Shown here: in pieces, positions 6,306-21,497 of the stretch
Layout: each line of letters starts with the position of its first letter
Numbering within the stretch: position 1 is the stretch's first letter
IMG/VR virus record: IMGVR_UViG_3300010149_000216
Coordinates: 1-21,820 of that record
Direction: 5' to 3' (one strand)
From: a virus
Length of the DNA stretch: 21,820 nucleotides
Translations under genes and position numbers: made by a program
The notes under the pieces: generated by a model
Told to the model about the DNA's origin: nothing
Database searches by the model: none
The model's input: the letters and a program-made list of their open reading frames with translations, nothing else

Positions 6306-7379
6306 ATGTCCTCGAATTTCGCATACCGATATGTAAGTATTACTCCCGAACACACAACCGCAACAGGCGTAAGAGATTACGGAACTGCATCTGCTATGAC
6401 TGCTCACGGCAGTAAAATCTATGGAGAAGTTGACGATGAATCACTCGCACACAACTTTGACCTAATGACAAGAGCAGATATGAGCAGATACGGTGCGGCT
6501 AAGTCCCTAAACGGTAAAGAATACTCCGAAGGTGGAGTTAACTTGGTTATTCAAGCAGACGACTTCTGTGGATTACTATTCTACGGTGCATACGGAGACA
6601 ACGCAACAGCCAACTCCGCTAAATATGTAGTCTCTTCAAACAAGCACACCATGACCGAAGGCTTAGACCACATCCTACCTTCATTCACACTTGAAATAGG
6701 TCGTGAAGATAAGGAACACACCTACACTGGTATGTGCTTAAGCAGAATTTCAGTAAGTGGTAGCGTTGGAGAATACGCTACAATGTCCGTTGACTTTAAC
6801 GGTAGGGCTGAGAGTGCAGTAAGCGCATTGGCTACACCAACCTTTGCAGGTGCTACTGTTGAAGGACTGCACTTTGCAGAAGGGGAAGTTGCCTTTTCGT
6901 CCGACAACTCAACTCAAGTAGTTTCAGCAAACATTAAGTCAATCTCAATAGAAATATCTACTAACTTAAATACCGATGACGCTTGTTCAATCGGTAGCAG
7001 AACTTATGTTAGGCAACCCGAACCACAAATGAGAGAAATCACAGGCTCAGTTGAGTTCTCAAGACCTTCAATCGGAACTGCTCTTGGTGGTTCGAACCAA
7101 GACCCACAGTATGACTTAATTACTGCTACTACTGGTGAAGAATACGACGGGACTCTAACTAAACCTGCTATCTCTCTTAAGTTCACACAAAGCGCAACAG
7201 ATGTGTTGAAGATTGAACTACCAAAGGTTCGATGGGAAGCACCTACTATGAATGTTAGTGGTCGTGATTCAAGTACTATGTCTCTAAACTTCGTTGCCCT
7301 TGTTGATGACAACATGGCTATGTCCGAAGTTGAGTTTGAGACATTGGGAACAACCGCAGGTCGCTACTCCACACTTTGA
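6306..7379 (+). CDS. Major tail tube protein
   Basis: This 357-aa protein reads as a phage tail tube protein. Most of it is beta strands. An N-terminal segment with Y-R-Y-V-S-I-T-P is followed by repeated strand-turn units, the central strand KEHTYTGMCLSRISVSGSVG, an S-V-D-F-N-G strand, and the C-terminal pair RWEAPTMNVSGRD and STMSLNFVALVDD. The last pair is typical of tube proteins, which stack as hexamers into the tail. It is the only plausible tube gene in the window and sits directly before the chaperones and tape measure. Asn codons are 13 AAC to 3 AAT by my count, opposite to neighbouring genes, consistent with high expression. At about 357 aa it is longer than the lambda tube protein (about 246 aa), so it may carry a surface-exposed insertion. 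Confidence 0.8.
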   Translation: MSSNFAYRYVSITPEHTTATGVRDYGTASAMTAHGSKIYGEVDDESLAHNFDLMTRADMSRYGAAKSLNGKEYSEGGVNLVIQADDFCGLLFYGAYGDNATANSAKYVVSSNKHTMTEGLDHILPSFTLEIGREDKEHTYTGMCLSRISVSGSVGEYATMSVDFNGRAESAVSALATPTFAGATVEGLHFAEGEVAFSSDNSTQVVSANIKSISIEISTNLNTDDACSIGSRTYVRQPEPQMREITGSVEFSRPSIGTALGGSNQDPQYDLITATTGEEYDGTLTKPAISLKFTQSATDVLKIELPKVRWEAPTMNVSGRDSSTMSLNFVALVDDNMAMSEVEFETLGTTAGRYSTL

Positions 7380-7391: not shown

Positions 7392-7571
7392 TTGAAGAAT
7401 AAACAAATCAAATTTAAAGGAACAAAGAAAGAAGTTCCTGTTGTTGTAGAACCAGTGGTTGAAGAACCAAAGGTTGAAGTTAAGGTGGAAAAGAAAACAC
7501 CTAAAAAGAAAAGTAAAGTAAAGAAAAGTAAGAGTGTGACAAAAGATGACAGTACTAAAAAAACAGTTTGA
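7392..7571 (+). CDS. Lys-rich 59-aa protein with TTG start, unknown function
   Basis: This frame of 59 codons begins at TTG 7392 behind a strong ribosome-binding site and ends at TGA 7569-7571. The product is about one third Lys. A first part with FKGTKK is followed by a Val/Pro/Glu segment (VPVVVEPVVEEPKVEVKVE) and then a basic run (KKTPKKKSKVKKSKS). It has no hydrophobic core and is probably disordered. It overlaps the first chaperone gene by 26 nt. I do not recognise it. Its place between tube and chaperone genes suggests a tail-assembly accessory or a protein that binds acidic partners or nucleic acid. There is no in-frame ATG, so without the TTG start the gene would be missed. Confidence 0.55.
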   Translation: MKNKQIKFKGTKKEVPVVVEPVVEEPKVEVKVEKKTPKKKSKVKKSKSVTKDDSTKKTV

Positions 7572-7896
7572 TATAGGAAGCAAAAAAATATGGGTGCGTC
7601 AAGCATCCGGTATGGAACGACTAAGGTTTGAAACCGTATTGGCTAAAACCTTCCGTAAGTTTAAGCATTTTGGTGCAGACCAAGAGAAGTGGACTGACGA
7701 GCAACAAGAGGAATTTATGATTGCTCTTGAGGATGCAGGGGCTGGGATGTACGACCAGTTAGAAATATTAGTCCCCAAGTGCATCATCGACCCAATAGAC
7801 ATCAACCTCATAGACCGTGATACACTCATGGATATTTACGGTTTCGTGAGAGGCGATTCGGAGGTTGATGATTCGGCAGTCCCTTTGGACTCGTGA
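7546..7896 (+). CDS. Tail assembly chaperone, upstream (G-like) frame
   Basis: This 116-aa protein has the features of tail assembly chaperones encoded between the tube and tape measure: a short beta-rich start (QFDIGSKKIWVRQASGMERL), a long helical middle (RFETVLAKTFRKF, TDEQQEEFMIALEDAGAGM), then a C-terminal helix (DRDTLMDIYGFVRG) and an acidic end. These proteins coat the tape measure during tube polymerisation and are normally absent from the mature virion. GTGAC (7536-7540) lies 10 nt before the ATG. The stop TGA (7894-7896) lies just after a slippery heptamer and inside a hairpin, so a fraction of ribosomes should continue into the next frame. It overlaps the Lys-rich gene by 26 nt. 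Confidence 0.7.
   Translation: MTVLKKQFDIGSKKIWVRQASGMERLRFETVLAKTFRKFKHFGADQEKWTDEQQEEFMIALEDAGAGMYDQLEILVPKCIIDPIDINLIDRDTLMDIYGFVRGDSEVDDSAVPLDS
7881..7887 (+). promoter_or_regulatory. Slippery heptamer CCCTTTG for programmed -1 frameshifting
   Basis: In the frame of the upstream chaperone the codons read GTC CCT TTG, so the heptamer is parsed C CCT TTG, an exact X-XXY-YYZ pattern. After a one-base backward slip the tRNAs re-pair on CCC and TTT, and reading continues GGA CTC GTG AGC, which is the frame of the downstream chaperone ORF. That frame is closed by TGA TGA at 7866-7871 and open from 7872, so the heptamer lies inside the short window in which a slip can work. Confidence 0.8.
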
Positions 7897-8168
7897 GCAA
7901 AGTAGCACCTGCTCTTTGCTCGTCTTTCAAAGGCGTATTACCGTCCGACCTTCTAATGAAATATACAACGAAGGGAGGCAACAACAAACTTGAATATGAC
8001 TTAGCGGTTCTTGACAGCATACATCAGCAAGTCAAGCAAGCACAAGGCGATTCAAAGAAAGATGGGGCATCAATGGAGGCAAGGCGCAAGCAACGCCGTC
8101 AAGCCCGACAAGAATTAAGTGATGGTGATGCAGTCGAATTATTAAAACAAGGCGGCTTCATTCAATGA
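7893..8168 (+). CDS. Tail assembly chaperone, downstream (T-like) frame, probably made as a -1 frameshift fusion
   Basis: As a free-standing ORF this would start at GTG 7893 and give 91 aa. There is no GTGA or GGAGG element at a sensible distance before that GTG, which argues against independent initiation. A -1 slip at 7881-7887 would instead join 114 upstream codons to 93 downstream codons (7887-8165) in a 207-aa fusion, like the lambda gpG/gpGT pair. The added part has a Pro-containing motif (GVLPSDLLMKY), a helix (EYDLAVLDSIHQQVK), a charged basic helix (EARRKQRRQARQEL) and a short end with GDAVELLKQGG. In the known systems the fused T part contacts the tape measure and the ratio of G to GT matters for tail assembly. 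The tape measure follows 18 nt later. Confidence 0.7.
   Translation: MSKVAPALCSSFKGVLPSDLLMKYTTKGGNNKLEYDLAVLDSIHQQVKQAQGDSKKDGASMEARRKQRRQARQELSDGDAVELLKQGGFIQ
7895..7921 (+). promoter_or_regulatory. Frameshift-stimulating stem-loop
   Basis: GAGCAAAG (7895-7902) pairs perfectly with CTTTGCTC (7914-7921). Within the loop AGC (7904-7906) pairs with GCT (7911-7913), leaving T7903 bulged and a four-base loop ACCT. The result is an 11-bp stem with one bulge. Two more G-U pairs are possible at the base. It starts 7 nt after the slippery site, the usual spacing for -1 frameshift stimulators, and contains part of the zero-frame stop codon. Confidence 0.75.
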
Positions 8169-12163: not shown

Positions 12164-12168
12164 GTGAT
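12164..12168 (+). promoter_or_regulatory. GTGAT ribosome-binding core deciding the ATG start of the hub gene
   Basis: GTGAT begins exactly 9 nt before ATG 12173. It is in frame, so it can be mistaken for a GTG start that adds three residues. The same spacing occurs before many genes here, which supports the role of a ribosome-binding site. Confidence 0.5.
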
Positions 12169-12172
12169 TAGT

Positions 12173-15100
12173 ATGGTAAGAACAACAGAAAGAAAATTGA
12201 CATTTTGGTTGGCTGGTTATTACGATGACTTTACCAATGCTAAAGCAGTCCCCGACGACTCAAACATAATGGGTAGCACTTGGAAATCAATAGAAACTCA
12301 CGCAGGTAATCCCCTTAATGGGTTATCACCTTACAATCCCCGATACAAATACGCATGGTTCGTACGAGGGACTGGTGCTTCGGGTGCTGATTTTAACGGA
12401 TTTAGTAGTATGTCTGCTATAGCACAGGCAGATAGATACTTACACAACAATAAATTAGGGGAATGGTTGACATTTGACCCCGAATGGTACAATCAAGGTC
12501 AGTATGAAGGGACTACTCATATTCAATATCCCGATTCTAAAACCAACGCCAACAGGCAAAAATTTGATGGGGCTACTGGTTTAATAGGTGCGGCCTATGA
12601 CTCAGCAGACCCAAAAGAAGGTTTCTTGATATTCTGTAATGGCTACAATACTCAAGGTCAATATTATGCTTTCACTGGTAATACTGATTCGTCCTATGGT
12701 CGTGACGATATGGTTTGGATTAACGATGAATCCGGTGGTTTTCTAAACAGTGCGGCTGGTGAACCTAATAATGCGCCAGCACCTACATACAGAATAGACA
12801 CTCATTTAGCGGGAGTCTATACTGGCGAAGTTGTAACCGACTTTGATGTTGTTACTGGCGGCACACCCTCCGGTGGGGGTGGTGCGTCAATGTTTCTACC
12901 ACCCATACATAGCCCAAGTCGTTCTCCATTCTTAGTACAAGAAATCTATAACAGTGCCGCAAGTGGATTTATCCCCACTTTGGTTTATCAAGGCTCTTTG
13001 AATTGTAAGGGAGATAATGACATATTCACAATTAGAATCTGCCCTATGTCTAACACACCATCAACAGGTGGTAAAACAAAACTTCTATTTGGTAATTCAA
13101 ACAACCCAATTGGTATAACAAGCGGAACAAGTGGCGACAGTACCGACGGAACTTACGCAGTAGATTATTTGTTAACTACAAAGCCTTACGGTGCGATGTT
13201 AAACTTGGATGGTTGGGATGCTGATTTTATTGATAGTCAAAGTATTGGTAAGTGGGATGACTACGAGTTCATACTTGACTTTACAAATCAAAATTATGAA
13301 GTTGCGATAAACGGTGGTGCGACTGGCGGAGGTGTTTCTTTCAATGCACATCCCGATGGTAGAGATTGGACTCCAGCAGACTTCTATGGTTGGGAATTGC
13401 AGGTTGAGTACACAGTCAATAAAGCGACTATCTTGGTTGATAGAGTAGGTGTTTGTAGACATTTAAATGATTTCCCAGCCAATACTCAAACTGGTATTGT
13501 ACAAAACATAACGCCTATTGGTGCAACAATGAACTTCGATGCTCAAGTAAATAGTGAGAGCAGAATGACTGTCAATATCACTGACGACGAAAATACATTA
13601 AAATTACTTGAATTCTTTAATGGTTCTTCTTATGGTGACTGGTCACTATTAGCATTTAGAGATAATATAGACAGGCCGTTTTATAGAGGTGGTCTAAAAA
13701 GTATGAATCATATATTCAATGCCGCTGACAGAACACCGACAATTACAATTACTTCTACCGATTATTTTGAAAATTTGAATCGACAAATACCACTATGGGA
13801 ATTAGGAGAAAGTGGGGATGTTGATTCTACGGCTATAGTAGCATACAACAGGCAAGATTCGCAAAACAGAATATCTACATATTACTTCGGTGCAAGTCCG
13901 TTAGAAGTTGGAAATGCCTCTTTAGGATTTAACGAAGTTGAAGATGGTACAGGTGTTTGGGAAGAACATATAGATTCAAGAATGAGATTGAGGTCTGCTC
14001 ACCCAATCCAAATGTATAATGATGAAGATGGGTTTGGAATTAACGATGCCTATACTACATGGGATGAAGCAATAAGTAATTCGTTTGCTACATCAGCCGC
14101 ACAGTATAGAAGCCTACATTCTCGCTGGATTCAAGATTTACCTAAGTCTCAATGGGTCAAGCATTTATTTGGTAGAATTCAAAAAGAACCATTACTAACT
14201 ACTTCCCTTGTATCTAATTTTAATAGAGGTGACTCTACATTAACTCTCAGTGCCGGTGCTGAAACACTTAAAGATGGCGGTCATATTGAATTTGTGTATA
14301 GTGACGGTAGAACCGATAGTGGGATAGTCACCAGCGCAACTCATAGCGAAGAATATACTGATATACAAGTAGCATGGCTTCATCCCTACACTACTGTTAA
14401 CAATCAAAATCCTTACAATAATAATACTGGTCACTTACTTGGTAATATATCCTATCCCTACACATTAGCAGTAGCCTTAGTTCCCACCACAGTTGATTTA
14501 CACCACAGGGTCTTTAAAATAACTGGGTCACAATGGCAGATATTTAACAACGAATGGGGATTTACTAAATTACCGATACAGGTTAGAAAACCCAACGCTT
14601 CTGCTACTACTATTACTTATGACATCTATACATTAAGCAAACCAGTCTCATATAATTCTTTTGGCATCAATATCATGACAGGAGAACCGTATAATGTAAA
14701 TGATTGGCGTTCATCTGCTTCTGCGGGTAATGGTAATCATCTTTTAAAATACTATGGTACGCCGTTAAAAACTAATAGAGTTAATTGGAACGACATTACT
14801 ACTGATGATGGTCTTAGTCAATATTATGTAGATTATGTTTGGAACAACAAGCAGATTGCTACACCTACAAATGGTCATAAAGTAGATGCAACAGCAAAAA
14901 GTTTTGCTCAAAGGCAATCCCAAGCCGCAAATAATACTAACTGCTTTTGGAGGAATCCTACTACTAATAATGTTATGAATTCGTTTGTCTCAGTGGGTGG
15001 GGAAGGGACGAGTAGTGCTAATATTAATTTAGGAGAGCCGCTGATAGTCACAAATGTTCGAGGTGGAAATACAGTTTGTCAGTTAGCCAGCCCTAATTTC

Positions 15101-18100
15101 TTTCAATTAAACCATACTATAACTGTACTTGGAAACCCAAGAGTCAATGTTTTGAATATGAAGGATGATTTTAAGCACTTATATGTACTGTGGGCTGATA
15201 TGAGAAACAATGGTAATGCTAATGCAGATGCTTATTTTAGAAAAGACGAATTCGGTTTGATGAAACCGACCAGTCAAAACTACGAACTTTCTCTTGTATT
15301 TGGCGACCAAAATACTGATTCCGGTGAAGAACGCCAAGAATTTGTTGATTTAGTTACAGGCGAAGATTATGATATATGGGAAATGAGTAGTACTGACCCA
15401 TTAACAGGTGCTAAGTGGTCTGCGGTGTCCGGTGGTTCAAACAGCGAAAGTGATTCTAAATATCACAATTGGGAAGATAAGGCAGGGGCGTTTTTAATCA
15501 TAGATACTTCTAAATTTTTCAATCTTAACACTAAATCAAACGGCGGAATGTCGGGTCAAATAGCAGGTGGTCGAAAAGAAGTAAATGACTACATTGTTGA
15601 AACAGAAGGATTCCCTATCTTGTTAGATAATTACTGGAAAAGAGCAACAACTACACCAGCAAACATATCAAACTACAAGGCTTGGAGTCCGTACCATTTC
15701 CTAACTGATAATGAAACTACTACTCTTAGAGAAGAAGTTAGATTTGGTGATAGGGCTATACAACTAACAGACTCCATCATAATTGATAAAGGTGATGTAT
15801 GGTCTAATACTTGGAGAATGCAAACGAGTAAAATTATTAGTGCAAGCAAAGAAGAAATCATACATTTTAATACTCATGGTAAAGTAGCAAGTAAGCAGAT
15901 GACCATAACCGCTACCGACCCATACACTGGTGTTTCCGTTAATAATGCTGGATTCATAGTAGGTAATCCTACCTCTTCCGACATTGGTGACTTGAACTAC
16001 TTAAGAGACGGTCACTTTATTAAAATAAGTAACTCTACAACCACTCCGTCAATAGACGGGACTTATAGACTAAGTATTCATAATAACTGCTTAACTGGCG
16101 ACCCTAATTGGGTAGGTAGAGTAGAGTTACCCAATGTCCTACTTCTTGGTGGTGGTGTTGCGGATATTGAGGCTGAACATACTTACAAATTAAATAGGCT
16201 CGACAATTTAGGCACAGTAGACACAGCCACTAACACACCTAATACATGGGACGGTTCATCTTACTCTAATATAGCAATAACTTCTACCTTTTTAGTTAAT
16301 CAAAGTTTAAATGTGTCCTGTGATTCGGGGACTAACACTATACAATTCGTTGGTTTATTGGCCGCTACTGATTGGAGATGGTTTGGCTTTCAACAGGGTA
16401 TGCAAATCAATTTAGTAAGTCTAACCAACCCTTCTAATAACGGTATTCACACGATACTTGATATGCAAGATAGCGGAACTGGTGTATTTGATACCATAGT
16501 AGTTGAAAACATAACAGCAAGCGAAACTTATGCCAGCAATGTGACAATAACTGATTATTATTACAACGGTAATTCTGCCGACTGGTTAATAAATAATAAA
16601 CCACTTAAAGGAGTGAGGATAGCACCTAATTTGACACAATATAAGAATACTACTACTGGTGCGAACCCTTATCACGAAGGGGCTGTAATACCAATACCAT
16701 TAGACGAAGATAATGGCTATACTGACGCTGTGGTTTATGCAAATGCGTCATCAATATTCCCTATGAGACTGATGATGCAGATGCAAGGATTTATCAAAAA
16801 TAAAGGCTCAATGACATTCAATGAGCATGATAAATTTAGAGTAACATATTTAGATTCATTAACTAAAAATTGGCTAAATCAAGCAAATTTATTAGGCATC
16901 CCCGATATAGGTACAATACCGAGAACCGACTCTATGAATATAGGGCAAAAAGATGCTATGACAAGCGGTAGGGCTGGTGTCATAACAGCAGTAGCAATCC
17001 CCCCAGCAACACCAGCGGGGACTAACGATTTCTTTTCATCGAATCACGGTTTAGTTACTGGCGACACTATTGAAATCATAAGTAACAATGTCCTTTCATC
17101 AATTAGTGTACCACCTTACTCTACTCAATATGTGGTGACTGCTTTAAACGCTGACGAAATTAGAATCACAACTGATAATACATCTTCACCTACTCACTTA
17201 GGTATGTGGCGTAAGATAGGTTCTGTTGATACATTTGGTAGTATAGTAGATTGTAGAAATACTACAATATCAAATATTTACTCACAGGTTAGACAGGTTA
17301 GTGGAGTCGGTGATACTAATGGCGTTAGAAGTGTGTTTTCTTATTACATGAGTAGGGATTCTAAACCTGCATTTAGACCCACATACGGTAATGGGTTTGT
17401 TTTCAATGACGACAATATCAAAGTATCGTCACTTGTCACACAAGGCTCAAGCCAAATATCTAATGTTAGGGTATTTTATGGTGCGGAAGGTAATTATGTA
17501 GACTATCCGCAAGTGGGTTTAGGTGCTAAACCGAGATGGGAAATAATACAAGCACCTCAATTGTCATCAAGTGACGAAGCATTAGTTGTAGCGAAGCAAG
17601 AGTTTGAGAAGAGAAAGAGAACACCTATGCAAATAAATGCTCAAATAACAAAACTAAATGATAAACACACGCTTGACGGTGCTAACGATAGAATGCTATA
17701 CAACGCTCGCTTTGGTTACATAGCCGACCAATCAAGGACTATTCCGTTCTATAAAAGTGTTAGTGGTAATGCATTCGACCATGCTATGTATTGGACGAGT
17801 TTAAGAGGCGGTAATCTCTTTACAGGAATACAAAACGCTCTTGATGGTAGATTAGGTACTTCGACATCCCCTTCGGGTTCAACAGTTTTAGCGCAAGATA
17901 ATTATAATTGGTATGGTGCTAACTCAGTATCTTATGCAACCCAAGTAGTTCATATCCCACATGGTATGCCTAAGTCAAGTAATGATACAGCGGCGGCAGG
18001 TAAAGTAAAAGCCGATGGTCGCTTGAGGATAGTTATTGATATTGCGCCCGAAACTGCATCACAAAAACTAAATTCCGGTACTGAAATTGACAACGGGACA

Positions 18101-19573
18101 TATTTGTTTAGAGTCCATTTGCTTGATTATGATTTTGAGCCATCGGGTAGTTCACCAGCAACAGGAACGGCTACTGTTAAATCACAAACCAGTGTCACTG
18201 TCGATTCCAACGGACTGTATGAAATAGCCATACCTTCAACATACTGGACTGCTCAAACTGGTAACGAAAGAATATTACTATCTGTCAACTATGATTATTT
18301 GGCTTCATTAGTAAAACTACGATGTGGCGGAGGATTTACCACAAAGCGTAAGAATGCTCATGATTGGGAAGGTGGTACATATTCAGCAGGTCATAACCCA
18401 TCATCTATTTTCCCGCTTGGTGTTCGTAGGTTTGGAACTGCTGGTTATTGGGGTGCGAGAGCAGAATACTATGCCCCAAGACTAAACATTACAGATGACT
18501 TAAACTTTACAGTAGGGACTACTTTAAAGTACACTAATTCACGATTAAATATAACAAATGAGGATTTGAGTATAAAGTCATTAAATTGGAATATTACCGG
18601 TAGAGAAACCGAAGTGCTTAATTTAAGTCTTGAAAGAGATGTCTCAAGGGCGGCAGAAGGATTTGCTTCTTACATACTACCTAAAGTAAATCTTGGCGGT
18701 AGACAGAAAGGTGGCGGCCTATCCCAACCAACGCCACACCCACTTCGCCCCCCAACTGGTGGAGGTGGTAACAATAAAGGTAAGCCGACGCAAGGTAATG
18801 AAAAGAATAAGTTTGGTGATGAATTTATTGGTACTCGTAGAACCCAAGATTTAACACCAATTACTGCACCGTCGAGAAGAAATACACCGGATGGGAGTAA
18901 TTCTTCCAACAACAGTACTCCGGTTATAGGCTCATCTGCTTTATCAACTAATGCTAATAATAGAATAAAGGGTAGTATGGATTTCAACAACAGTAGTATG
19001 GTTGGCGACAAGTTTTCGGTTTTGGGTCAAAAGAAACCAGCACAAGCACCAAGAAATACTAATGCAGACCAAAGTATAGACTCTTTCATTATACCCGAAG
19101 GTGGTAACGCTGTGATGGGTACAAACGGTTTTACTTTGGCTGGTCGTGGTCAAGATGGTGGTGTAAGTGTGTACGGTTCGACAAAGATTCACTTAAGAAT
19201 ACCTGCTAATCCTCAAAGTAACAGCATTAGGGTATTCGGTAGAGCATCGTTACCTACTCTTAGTGCAAGTGCTGAGGTAGCGGTGGTGTTTGCTACTGCT
19301 ACTTGTGTGGAGACTGGGGATTCCATAGAGTCAACAGTACAAATCGAAGCAAGAACGGACGGGTCTGCTCAAACAGTAGTTTTCATCACTGGAAACCTGC
19401 GTGGTGCTGATATAGCAGGTAACACAATAGAGTTATTGCTTGAGCGTGAAGCAGGTCGAGGGAGTGATACTGCTATGGTTAGCGCACTATCAGTCCATAA
19501 TATACAGATAGCAAGTGATACTCGGTCAGTAAGTGGTAAGAGTAAGACAAATGAATTCTCATACGGTCTTTGA
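12173..19573 (+). CDS. Giant tail tip/hub and receptor-binding fibre protein
   Basis: This 2466-aa multidomain protein follows the tape measure. Visible parts: an N-terminal Trp/Tyr-rich region (1-230); a Gly linker; a LamG/lectin-like sandwich (about 265-440, with WDDYEFILDFTNQNYEVAIN); a distal-tail-like beta module (about 442-545, MNFDAQVNSESRMTVNITDD, FYRGGLK); long beta-rich spans; small beta modules near 1280, 1397 and 1601 (HGLVTGDTIEI, YVVTALNADEIRIT); a hub-like region (about 1718-1830, ISNVRVFYGAEGN then VAKQEFEKRKRTPMQI); a closing strand set (near 2123, LNITNEDLSIKSLNW); a Pro/Gly/Asn linker (2174-2260); and a C-terminal jelly-roll-like domain (2299-2466). It probably combines hub, fibre and adhesin roles at the tail tip. 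ATG 12173 is preferred over GTG 12164. The 3' end overlaps the convergent nuclease gene by 15 bp. Confidence 0.75.
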   Translation: MVRTTERKLTFWLAGYYDDFTNAKAVPDDSNIMGSTWKSIETHAGNPLNGLSPYNPRYKYAWFVRGTGASGADFNGFSSMSAIAQADRYLHNNKLGEWLTFDPEWYNQGQYEGTTHIQYPDSKTNANRQKFDGATGLIGAAYDSADPKEGFLIFCNGYNTQGQYYAFTGNTDSSYGRDDMVWINDESGGFLNSAAGEPNNAPAPTYRIDTHLAGVYTGEVVTDFDVVTGGTPSGGGGASMFLPPIHSPSRSPFLVQEIYNSAASGFIPTLVYQGSLNCKGDNDIFTIRICPMSNTPSTGGKTKLLFGNSNNPIGITSGTSGDSTDGTYAVDYLLTTKPYGAMLNLDGWDADFIDSQSIGKWDDYEFILDFTNQNYEVAINGGATGGGVSFNAHPDGRDWTPADFYGWELQVEYTVNKATILVDRVGVCRHLNDFPANTQTGIVQNITPIGATMNFDAQVNSESRMTVNITDDENTLKLLEFFNGSSYGDWSLLAFRDNIDRPFYRGGLKSMNHIFNAADRTPTITITSTDYFENLNRQIPLWELGESGDVDSTAIVAYNRQDSQNRISTYYFGASPLEVGNASLGFNEVEDGTGVWEEHIDSRMRLRSAHPIQMYNDEDGFGINDAYTTWDEAISNSFATSAAQYRSLHSRWIQDLPKSQWVKHLFGRIQKEPLLTTSLVSNFNRGDSTLTLSAGAETLKDGGHIEFVYSDGRTDSGIVTSATHSEEYTDIQVAWLHPYTTVNNQNPYNNNTGHLLGNISYPYTLAVALVPTTVDLHHRVFKITGSQWQIFNNEWGFTKLPIQVRKPNASATTITYDIYTLSKPVSYNSFGINIMTGEPYNVNDWRSSASAGNGNHLLKYYGTPLKTNRVNWNDITTDDGLSQYYVDYVWNNKQIATPTNGHKVDATAKSFAQRQSQAANNTNCFWRNPTTNNVMNSFVSVGGEGTSSANINLGEPLIVTNVRGGNTVCQLASPNFFQLNHTITVLGNPRVNVLNMKDDFKHLYVLWADMRNNGNANADAYFRKDEFGLMKPTSQNYELSLVFGDQNTDSGEERQEFVDLVTGEDYDIWEMSSTDPLTGAKWSAVSGGSNSESDSKYHNWEDKAGAFLIIDTSKFFNLNTKSNGGMSGQIAGGRKEVNDYIVETEGFPILLDNYWKRATTTPANISNYKAWSPYHFLTDNETTTLREEVRFGDRAIQLTDSIIIDKGDVWSNTWRMQTSKIISASKEEIIHFNTHGKVASKQMTITATDPYTGVSVNNAGFIVGNPTSSDIGDLNYLRDGHFIKISNSTTTPSIDGTYRLSIHNNCLTGDPNWVGRVELPNVLLLGGGVADIEAEHTYKLNRLDNLGTVDTATNTPNTWDGSSYSNIAITSTFLVNQSLNVSCDSGTNTIQFVGLLAATDWRWFGFQQGMQINLVSLTNPSNNGIHTILDMQDSGTGVFDTIVVENITASETYASNVTITDYYYNGNSADWLINNKPLKGVRIAPNLTQYKNTTTGANPYHEGAVIPIPLDEDNGYTDAVVYANASSIFPMRLMMQMQGFIKNKGSMTFNEHDKFRVTYLDSLTKNWLNQANLLGIPDIGTIPRTDSMNIGQKDAMTSGRAGVITAVAIPPATPAGTNDFFSSNHGLVTGDTIEIISNNVLSSISVPPYSTQYVVTALNADEIRITTDNTSSPTHLGMWRKIGSVDTFGSIVDCRNTTISNIYSQVRQVSGVGDTNGVRSVFSYYMSRDSKPAFRPTYGNGFVFNDDNIKVSSLVTQGSSQISNVRVFYGAEGNYVDYPQVGLGAKPRWEIIQAPQLSSSDEALVVAKQEFEKRKRTPMQINAQITKLNDKHTLDGANDRMLYNARFGYIADQSRTIPFYKSVSGNAFDHAMYWTSLRGGNLFTGIQNALDGRLGTSTSPSGSTVLAQDNYNWYGANSVSYATQVVHIPHGMPKSSNDTAAAGKVKADGRLRIVIDIAPETASQKLNSGTEIDNGTYLFRVHLLDYDFEPSGSSPATGTATVKSQTSVTVDSNGLYEIAIPSTYWTAQTGNERILLSVNYDYLASLVKLRCGGGFTTKRKNAHDWEGGTYSAGHNPSSIFPLGVRRFGTAGYWGARAEYYAPRLNITDDLNFTVGTTLKYTNSRLNITNEDLSIKSLNWNITGRETEVLNLSLERDVSRAAEGFASYILPKVNLGGRQKGGGLSQPTPHPLRPPTGGGGNNKGKPTQGNEKNKFGDEFIGTRRTQDLTPITAPSRRNTPDGSNSSNNSTPVIGSSALSTNANNRIKGSMDFNNSSMVGDKFSVLGQKKPAQAPRNTNADQSIDSFIIPEGGNAVMGTNGFTLAGRGQDGGVSVYGSTKIHLRIPANPQSNSIRVFGRASLPTLSASAEVAVVFATATCVETGDSIESTVQIEARTDGSAQTVVFITGNLRGADIAGNTIELLLEREAGRGSDTAMVSALSVHNIQIASDTRSVSGKSKTNEFSYGL

Positions 19574-20284
19574 TTCCGGTTGGTCGGGATAGCGTTCTCG
19601 TAAGAACAAAATAGCCTTTGCTCTTTGACGGCCTATACCTTCGGTATTCATCAATTGACGCTGACTCGTCCTCGCTCTTAGTATGCGAGGGAGTGAGCCA
19701 AACTCAGTAAGTAAGTCGTGTGCCGCCCGTTGCGACACACCTTCTATTGATGCTAACGCCGCTACTCGTGGGTCAACATTACGATTGCCCTTTGATGCTA
19801 TCTCTTTAGGTTCTGCTACCTTCATATTTCTTACTCTTAAGTTATGGTGCATAGAACTAAGCCAATCAACAAACTCGTCCATACTTGACAGTTCCATATA
19901 CTGAATGTTGGGGAATTGAATAAATAGATTCTGTTTGAATTTTTTTATGACCGCTTGCATTTTTTTCATCTCACGAGCAATCGCTACACGGTTGCCGCCT
20001 CTAACATACGGCTTTAATTTGGTGTTATAGACTACCAGCATAGGTCGCTCAAAGTTTTTATTGAGGTCATATAGTTGTCCCACAATAGTTCTACTACGAC
20101 CATGCCCCATGATAGAATGATACAGGTCATTTATCTCTTTGGCTTCAATCCCAATCTCTCCGATGATGTAATCAGCGGAAATTAGACGCTTTACCTTGAC
20201 ATGACCGCCTTCATCATGCTTACCCATAGCAACATATAATTTGTGTTTAAGCAGGTCGTTTTCTCGGTCATCTACGATGAGCAT
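19559..20284 (-). CDS. ERCC4/XPF-type nuclease with C-terminal helix-hairpin-helix domain
   Basis: This 241-aa protein has an N-terminal ERCC4 fold: IVDDRE (residues 3-8, matching V-D-x-R-E), SADYIIGE (36-43, matching G-D-Y-x-x-G) and IEAKEINDLYHSI (46-58, matching the E-R-K-x-x-x-D-L-x-x-S-I active site). The usual Arg of E-R-K is Ala here, while Glu47, Lys49 and Asp53 are kept. Residues about 172-232 form two helix-hairpin-helix motifs (SIEGVSQRAAHDLL and NTEGIGRQRAKAIL). Hef, XPF and Mus81 nucleases cut branched DNA, so this protein likely processes replication forks or recombination intermediates of the viral genome. It lacks a helicase domain. It lies 32 nt downstream of the primase in the same operon. 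AGGGAT near the start may serve as ribosome-binding site. Confidence 0.85.
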   Translation of the reverse strand: MLIVDDRENDLLKHKLYVAMGKHDEGGHVKVKRLISADYIIGEIGIEAKEINDLYHSIMGHGRSRTIVGQLYDLNKNFERPMLVVYNTKLKPYVRGGNRVAIAREMKKMQAVIKKFKQNLFIQFPNIQYMELSSMDEFVDWLSSMHHNLRVRNMKVAEPKEIASKGNRNVDPRVAALASIEGVSQRAAHDLLTEFGSLPRILRARTSQRQLMNTEGIGRQRAKAILFLRERYPDQPESKTV

Positions 20285-20316: not shown

Positions 20317-21345
20317 TCATTCTATATTGTCCGGTATTTCTACCGTACCATCGTATCTCCAACACTTCTTAGCGCACATACCTCTCGCTACAAACCAAGC
20401 GCAAGAAGGGACACGCTTATAATTTAGATTAGTTCTTATACCTTTACGAGATACAGTGGGATTCCAATTAGACCAGTTTAGACTTTTGATATACTCAAAT
20501 ATCTCATCCTCAATCTTATGCTTTTGCTCGGTTGTGAGTGAACGAGGGTCAGCAAAATCTCTAAGGGTATCGGCCATGTGCTGAACCAGTGCTACACGGA
20601 CATGGTGATTTGGCTTGTTTTGATGCACCCCACGAGCCAAACAAGGCATCAAAGGTACTGACCCAGCACTGAGGGTACTATCGTCCAACACAACGCTCTC
20701 AGCGAAGGAATAATCTTCTACTTCGGGCGCATACTTATCAGCCCAAGAAACAAAATCAAACCCACTCCCATTACCAATCCCATAAGGGTGCTTACTTCTG
20801 CACATTTTTTGTGGAATTTTAGGTATCTTAAAATTCTGTGGGTCTTGGATAAAGTCATTAGGGTCAACTACTACTGACCAGCGACCACGCTTAGGATTGT
20901 AAGTATTAGGTATGCGGGTCATCTTTTCGGGGAAGCCTACACCATCAAGTGTAGCAAGACCCTTAGCCTTTCTACGCTGATAATGCTCTAACGGTAGCCT
21001 GTATTGATGTCCGACGACAGATTGCTTGAACAATTGATGAACATGGAAACCTCTACCAGTGGCGACCAATCGAATATCTCCATCAAGTCTACGGATGAGT
21101 TCTGCAACATCTTGCTTGACAAGTTCAATGCCGCCTCGTTCCCCTGCATCAAAATCCCACCATGCTCTATCAATCACCGCAGTAGTATAATCCGGCTTAC
21201 CATCCTCTATCCGTTCAAAAGAATATAGGCTTGTGTAGCATGAAGTCTTGTCTCGCATTCTTTTAAGATACAACGAATACTGAGTTTTGCCACTGACTAT
21301 TGCTCTTTTTAAGCCTAATTCTCTCGGAAATGTCAACAACTCCAT
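20317..21345 (-). CDS. Archaeo-eukaryotic primase with PriL-like Fe-S C-terminal region
   Basis: This 342-aa protein (345 if GTG 21354 is used; residue numbers here follow the longer form) joins a PriS-like catalytic part to a PriL-like end. Motif I is WWDFDA (Asp67, Asp69). Motif II is ATGRGFHVH (98-106, with His104 matching the S/T-G-R-G-x-H motif). A likely motif III Asp137 lies before RIPNTYNPKRGRW (147-159), which mirrors the R-L-P-G-S-x-x-x-K-x-G loop of PriS. The C-terminal third has four Cys (237, 318, 327, 331) around WNPTVSRKGIRTNLNYKRVP, as in the Fe-S domain of the large primase subunit. It should synthesise primers for viral replication. ATG 21345 is preferred because GAGTGA lies just upstream. 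The upstream zinc-ribbon gene ends in that same GAGTGA. Fused PriS-PriL proteins are known from archaeal mobile elements. Confidence 0.85.
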   Translation of the reverse strand: MELLTFPRELGLKRAIVSGKTQYSLYLKRMRDKTSCYTSLYSFERIEDGKPDYTTAVIDRAWWDFDAGERGGIELVKQDVAELIRRLDGDIRLVATGRGFHVHQLFKQSVVGHQYRLPLEHYQRRKAKGLATLDGVGFPEKMTRIPNTYNPKRGRWSVVVDPNDFIQDPQNFKIPKIPQKMCRSKHPYGIGNGSGFDFVSWADKYAPEVEDYSFAESVVLDDSTLSAGSVPLMPCLARGVHQNKPNHHVRVALVQHMADTLRDFADPRSLTTEQKHKIEDEIFEYIKSLNWSNWNPTVSRKGIRTNLNYKRVPSCAWFVARGMCAKKCWRYDGTVEIPDNIE

Positions 21346-21350
21346 AGGAG

Positions 21351-21497
21351 TCACTCATGCCCTCTCCACTTAGCACCGCAAGCAGTACAGGTATGCACAA
21401 TAAGCATCTTCTGTTCACCACCCACTTGTCCTGTGACAAGCATCATGGCATCGGTCTGTATCTCAGTCTTAGTATCGCATTTCGCACATTCTATCAT
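21351..21497 (-). CDS. 48-aa zinc-ribbon protein
   Basis: This short frame starts at ATG (bases 21497-21495) and stops at TGA (21353-21351). The product has two CxxC knuckles, MIECAKC (Cys4, Cys7) and HTCTACGAKW (Cys37, Cys40), 29 residues apart, with hydrophobic strands between. This is the layout of a zinc ribbon as in TFIIS, RPB9 or ribosomal proteins. GTGGT lies 9 nt before the ATG, the gene sits two bases after the stop of the upstream gene, and its end overlaps the primase ribosome-binding site. It may help transcription or replication by binding nucleic acid or a polymerase subunit, but the sequence does not show which. Confidence 0.7.
   Translation of the reverse strand: MIECAKCDTKTEIQTDAMMLVTGQVGGEQKMLIVHTCTACGAKWRGHE

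Follow-up and report, generated by a model that had tools for sequence, protein, structure and literature searches.

The DNA analysed here, IMG/VR virus record IMGVR_UViG_3300010149_000216 (21,820 nucleotides (nt), positions 1 to 21,820; hereafter the window), carries two overlapping open reading frames (ORFs), G and T, between its tail tube and tape-measure genes, and the question raised by this locus is how ribosomes reach the second of them. Tail-chaperone frameshifting is classical. The original prediction proposed that a −1 frameshift near the end of G gives proteins of 116 and 207 amino acids (aa), and we find this core strongly supported, as the slip site is kept at every related locus and most relatives offer no alternative start for T. 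We conclude that G and T very probably form a programmed −1 frameshift pair of the lambda G/GT type, yielding 116-aa G and 207-aa GT.

The 3′-end of G reads GTC CCT TTG GAC TCG TGA in the 0 frame, with the stop codon at 7894–7896, and contains the slippery heptamer C_CCT_TTG in phase. In-phase heptamers of the form X_XXY_YYZ occur 30 times in the 6121 codons of the window's genes (about one per 200 codons), and CCCTTTG occurs in phase once. The −1 frame opens at 7872, directly after a TGA at 7869–7871 and thus just 9 nt upstream of the heptamer, which is followed by a 7-nt spacer (GACTCGT, 7888–7894) and an 11-bp stem with one bulge; each of these elements is present as the original prediction described it. 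Most ribosomes would translate G and terminate at its TGA, and a minority, with CCU in the P site and UUG in the A site, would slip one base back, from C_CCU_UUG to CCC UUU. These would then read GGA CUC GUG and onwards, giving GT with the junction ...SAVPL-GLVSK.... The predicted junction peptide of GT is GDSEVDDSAVPLGLVSK and the C-terminal peptide of G is GDSEVDDSAVPLDS. The resulting G:GT ratio would serve tail assembly around the tape-measure protein, which is encoded next.

Relatives were gathered by protein-based searches that were blind to the heptamer. These gave 96 loci with both ORFs readable, including overlapping extracts of single contigs, which were removed in the reduction to 63 sequences of less than 95% nucleotide identity; GT protein identity in this reduced set goes down to 37%, with a median of 49%. 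C_CCT_TTG or C_CCT_TTA was found in phase in 96/96 loci, 3–18 nt before the end of the G stop codon, and T lies in the −1 frame relative to G in all 96, on inspection also in L105 and L113. All these sequences, the window included, come from metagenomic contigs, which could invite the suspicion of a sequencing or assembly error, or of a gene in decay that a frameshift mutation has split, but the same frame relation recurs in 96 loci from many samples and both halves remain conserved, T as a protein in an alignment of 49 members, and we give this explanation practically no weight. We consider it just as improbable that the heptamer is conserved merely through the protein sequence (V/I)PL. Residues P113 and L114 of G are indeed invariant in the protein alignment (58 members), but the Pro codon is CCT in 63/63 sequences, out of four possible codons, the Leu codon is TTR in 63/63, out of six, and the codon before them always has C as its third base, be the residue V, I, P, L, A, C or T, so that the whole reads NNC CCT TTR in all 63. 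When codon identity at same-residue sites was compared with each pair's own average over 131 columns, the three heptamer codons were the most constrained of all, with observed/expected ratios of 2.3–2.6 (63 non-redundant pairs), the highest in the gene pair. As far as sequence comparison can tell, this synonymous constraint directly indicates selection for the nucleotides of the heptamer, which is thus conserved near the end of G beyond the need of the protein, as in G/GT-type frameshifting. The alignment of relatives that the original prediction had proposed as a check therefore bears out its slip site.

Several observations weigh against this reading. Neither G nor T has a convincing Pfam or PHROG match, and for the HK97 chaperone 2OB9 the fold match falls short of significance (E = 0.6). 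The stem shows no covariation above shuffles among 14 near relatives, the one double change being equalled by 213 of 500 shuffles; it is missing in L005, L012, L040 and L041; and the mean fold z-score over the 63 sequences is near −0.4, like that of other stretches of T. Finally, a possible T start lies near the G stop in 27 of the 63 relatives, the window included.

Because the GTG at 7893 overlaps the G stop codon as GTGA, reinitiation needed testing, that is, the alternative that termination-reinitiation at this GTG produces T as a protein in its own right, with no frameshift required. TTGA or similar overlaps are present in some relatives as well. However, from the point where the T frame opens up to T codon 9, 36 of the 63 relatives contain no ATG, GTG or TTG, which leaves them without a start codon ahead of the conserved T motif; 52 lack an ATG over the same interval, and in L005 a GTC stands in place of the window's GTG. 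The GTG is the first start codon of the T frame in the window and, as the original prediction noted, nothing resembling a ribosome-binding site is found close upstream, compared with Shine-Dalgarno (SD)-like sequences at 55 of 62 tape-measure starts. Reinitiation would furthermore leave the invariant heptamer unexplained. T thus overlaps G in another frame and has no start codon that is conserved, and since 36 relatives have no start codon to offer, separate initiation, judged from the codons present, cannot be the general route to T in this group; we regard reinitiation as very unlikely.

As to what could stimulate the proposed frameshift, the window offers the hairpin, with a 5′ arm of GAGCAAAG (7895–7902), a bulged T (7903) and AGC (7904–7906), a loop of ACCT (7907–7910), and a 3′ arm of GCT (7911–7913) and CTTTGCTC (7914–7921). 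Compared with 1104 equally long stretches of the window's genes, the 34 nt that follow the heptamer fold better than 99.8%; the RNAfold energy over 45 nt is −16.1 kcal/mol (z = −3.96 relative to dinucleotide shuffles), and against synonymous recodings of T the hairpin has z = −2.6 (p = 0.013). The window shares it with most of its close clade, with a mean z of about −2 over nine sequences, and 89.6% of pair cells are kept among the 14 near relatives, mostly through one-sided G-U changes. A stem common to the whole family was ruled out, as across the 63 sequences synonymous conservation is not raised in the T codons of the stem region and the fold z-scores there are like those of other T stretches. 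The original prediction of a complete signal therefore stands for the heptamer, which is family-wide, but not for the stem, which is clade-specific and was lost in relatives that still have both ORFs, and the covarying stem pairs it had looked to amount to one double change beside one-sided G-U changes. In this virus we nevertheless think it fairly likely that the stem is a functional stimulator, and 7 nt downstream of the slip site it probably raises efficiency in the window virus and its close clade.

Competing solely with this stimulator part of our explanation is the possibility that the frameshift is real and the hairpin incidental, the stimulator being an upstream SD-like sequence or a stop codon, or none being needed. 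The absence of the stem from many relatives would fit with this, as would the sequence upstream of the heptamer: GGAGG is found within 15 nt upstream in 24 of the 63 sequences, where synonymous recodings have it in 5.0 ± 2.1. Of 51 cases of Glu five codons before the TTR codon, 36 use GAG, while other sites use GAG for 52 of 307 (17%) Glu residues that precede Gly and, elsewhere, for 27%. The GAG enrichment is weakened by relatedness (p = 0.003 when sequences are clustered at 70% identity, p = 0.09 when clustered at 60%). In 36 cases the SD-like motif stands 6 nt from the heptamer, but the GGAGG of the window lies at 16 nt, and the close clade keeps its stem, if mainly through G-U changes, at the mean z given above, and on this balance we find an incidental hairpin conceivable but somewhat doubtful. 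C_CC.U_UU.G is listed among the heptamers giving more than 0.10% frameshifting without stimulators in Escherichia coli (PMC4066793). In the group at large, an internal SD-like GAGGG or GGAGG upstream may be the commoner stimulator, and elsewhere in the group this motif or a nearby stop codon may take the part that we assign to the hairpin here. The heptamer would thus be the fixed element and the stimulators lineage-specific. We advance only tentatively, at not quite an even chance, that in a large, uncultivated group of archaeal tailed viruses C_CCU_UUR has become fixed, with stimulators swapped between an SD-like GAGGG, a hairpin, or a stop directly after the heptamer. As a separate observation, the G stop in L107, L108, L110 and L114–L118 is a TAG directly after the heptamer (C_CCT_TTA_TAG or C_CCT_TTG_TAG), with no sense codon between.

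Tail chaperone pairs canonically sit between tube and tape measure, and G and T occupy this slot. As the pair has no convincing family match and no significant fold match, its putative chaperone function rests on synteny and gene arrangement. The AlphaFold2 (AF2) model of G (predicted local distance difference test (pLDDT) 90) has two strands and four helices, and that of T (pLDDT 81) is helical; fold searches returned many weak matches named tail assembly chaperone, none of them significant by E-value. UniProt contains a close relative in structure and sequence, A0A516M8M4 (62% identity). Searches of T and GT against phages by tblastn gave nothing useful, G and T are not detectably related to any record of the phage collection, and the tape measure had no match among plasmids. 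The features are collected in Table 1. In addition, a small Lys/Glu/Val/Pro-rich ORF of 59 aa with a TTG start (7392–7571, + strand) lies between the tail tube gene and G, overlapping the start of G by 26 nt, and similar Lys-rich frames precede G in close relatives. Downstream of the tape-measure gene, a very large ORF of 2469 aa extends over 12164–19573 (+ strand).

Table 1. Features of the G/T locus and neighbouring genes, with positions in the window.
Feature	Positions	Strand	Basis or remark
Tail tube protein	6306..7379	+	Phage_tube_2, E = 8.8e-17
G-like ORF, 116 aa, 0-frame tail assembly chaperone candidate	7546..7896	+	ORF, 58-member family alignment, synteny, AF2 model, weak fold matches
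GGAGG, SD-like, 16 nt before heptamer	7860..7864	+	Putative role; most relatives have GAGGG 6 nt before heptamer
T open frame (−1), 93 residues predicted to be added to G after slip (GT = 207 aa)	7872..8168	+	T alignment over 49 members; −1 in all relatives
Slippery heptamer C_CCU_UUG	7881..7887	+	In phase; C_CCU_UUR kept in 96/96 loci; synonymous conservation
GTG, first start of T frame, overlapping G stop as GTGA	7893..7895	+	Not conserved; most relatives have TTG or no start codon
11-bp hairpin with one bulge, 7 nt after heptamer; clade-specific candidate stimulator	7895..7921	+	Folding and relatives
Tape-measure protein, 1323 aa	8187..12158	+	PhageMin_Tail, 1.3e-15; TIGR01760, 9.9e-18
Hef/XPF-like ERCC4-HhH nuclease	19559-20284	-	Kept in 14/14 long relatives
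345-aa protein beside nuclease	20317-21354	-	In 14/14 long relatives; no meaningful Pfam, NCBIfam or PDB match

The ribosomes that would read this signal are probably archaeal. An archaeal host is by a good margin the likeliest, from the types of replication and repair genes, and to this extent the host named in the original prediction is upheld, short of proof. Long relatives of 60–69 kb (n = 14) were searched, and the gene list comes from one contig of 61.6 kb. All 14 carry the Hef/XPF-like ERCC4 nuclease together with the adjacent 345-aa protein, which might be primase-like. The 61.6-kb relative encodes a PolB whose best match in the phage collection is Halorubrum tailed virus 27 (HRTV-27), as well as an RFC-like AAA ATPase and a PD-(D/E)XK nuclease. 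PCNA was not found and MCM matches were weak, and searches of prokaryote (GTDB) genomes with the GT alignment and the RFC-like protein identified no host. Magroviruses likewise encode an ERCC4 nuclease and PolB (PMC10160649). As the Magrovirales described have genomes of 90–110 kb (PMC12999244, PMC10768690), compared with the 60–69 kb of the relatives, the window's group may belong to another lineage.

The conserved tail-chaperone frameshift of double-stranded DNA phages, lambda G/GT (Xu, Hendrix and Duda, 2004, as cited in PMC7230728), shares with this locus the overlapping ORFs between tube and tape measure, T in the −1 frame, a slip site near the G stop, and a T without a conserved start of its own. 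The window differs from it in the heptamer C_CCU_UUR, in a G and T without detectable homology to known families, in the clade-specific hairpin and in the upstream SD-like motif. Gordonia phages have a tube and tape measure distantly similar to those of the window, and genes 24/25 of Gordonia phage Demosthenes are annotated at the same position as a joined tail assembly chaperone, in which we find an in-phase A_AAA_AAG with T in −1; unlike here, the host is bacterial, the heptamer is another and the G and T have no detectable similarity to those of the window. In the accounts of haloarchaeal tailed viruses available to us, a g-t frameshift is predicted for HVTV-1, HCTV-1, -2 and -5 (−1) and HSTV-2 (+1) (PMC5009743, PMC8211752), so that such a device in an archaeal host has precedent; the present viruses are marine, use C_CCU_UUR, and have a G and T not detectably related to phage-collection records. 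The only demonstrated archaeal −1 frameshift is that of fucA1 from Saccharolobus solfataricus, shown in vitro and with the full-length product in vivo (PMC8211752). There, archaeal ribosomes have been demonstrated to read a −1 frameshift, as we suggest for the window, but in a cellular gene and on an A_AAA_AAT heptamer. C_CCU_UUR is not among the archaeal frameshift heptamers reported, the haloarchaeal cases being those covered by reviews, and what stands out here is that an unusual heptamer is kept strictly across a large group of uncultivated viruses.

Viral cases in archaea have so far been predictions from a handful of haloarchaeal isolates. The 63 diverse natural versions of this locus, with their invariant heptamer and varying flanks, are a test set for what ribosomes, here probably archaeal, need in order to slip, and the junction peptide is a target for marine metaproteomes. 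For gene calling, we point out that standard annotation would miss T or call it a separate gene. If these viruses do swap stimulators around a fixed C_CCU_UUR, properties of the host tRNA or ribosome would fix the slip site, with the stimulators evolving freely.
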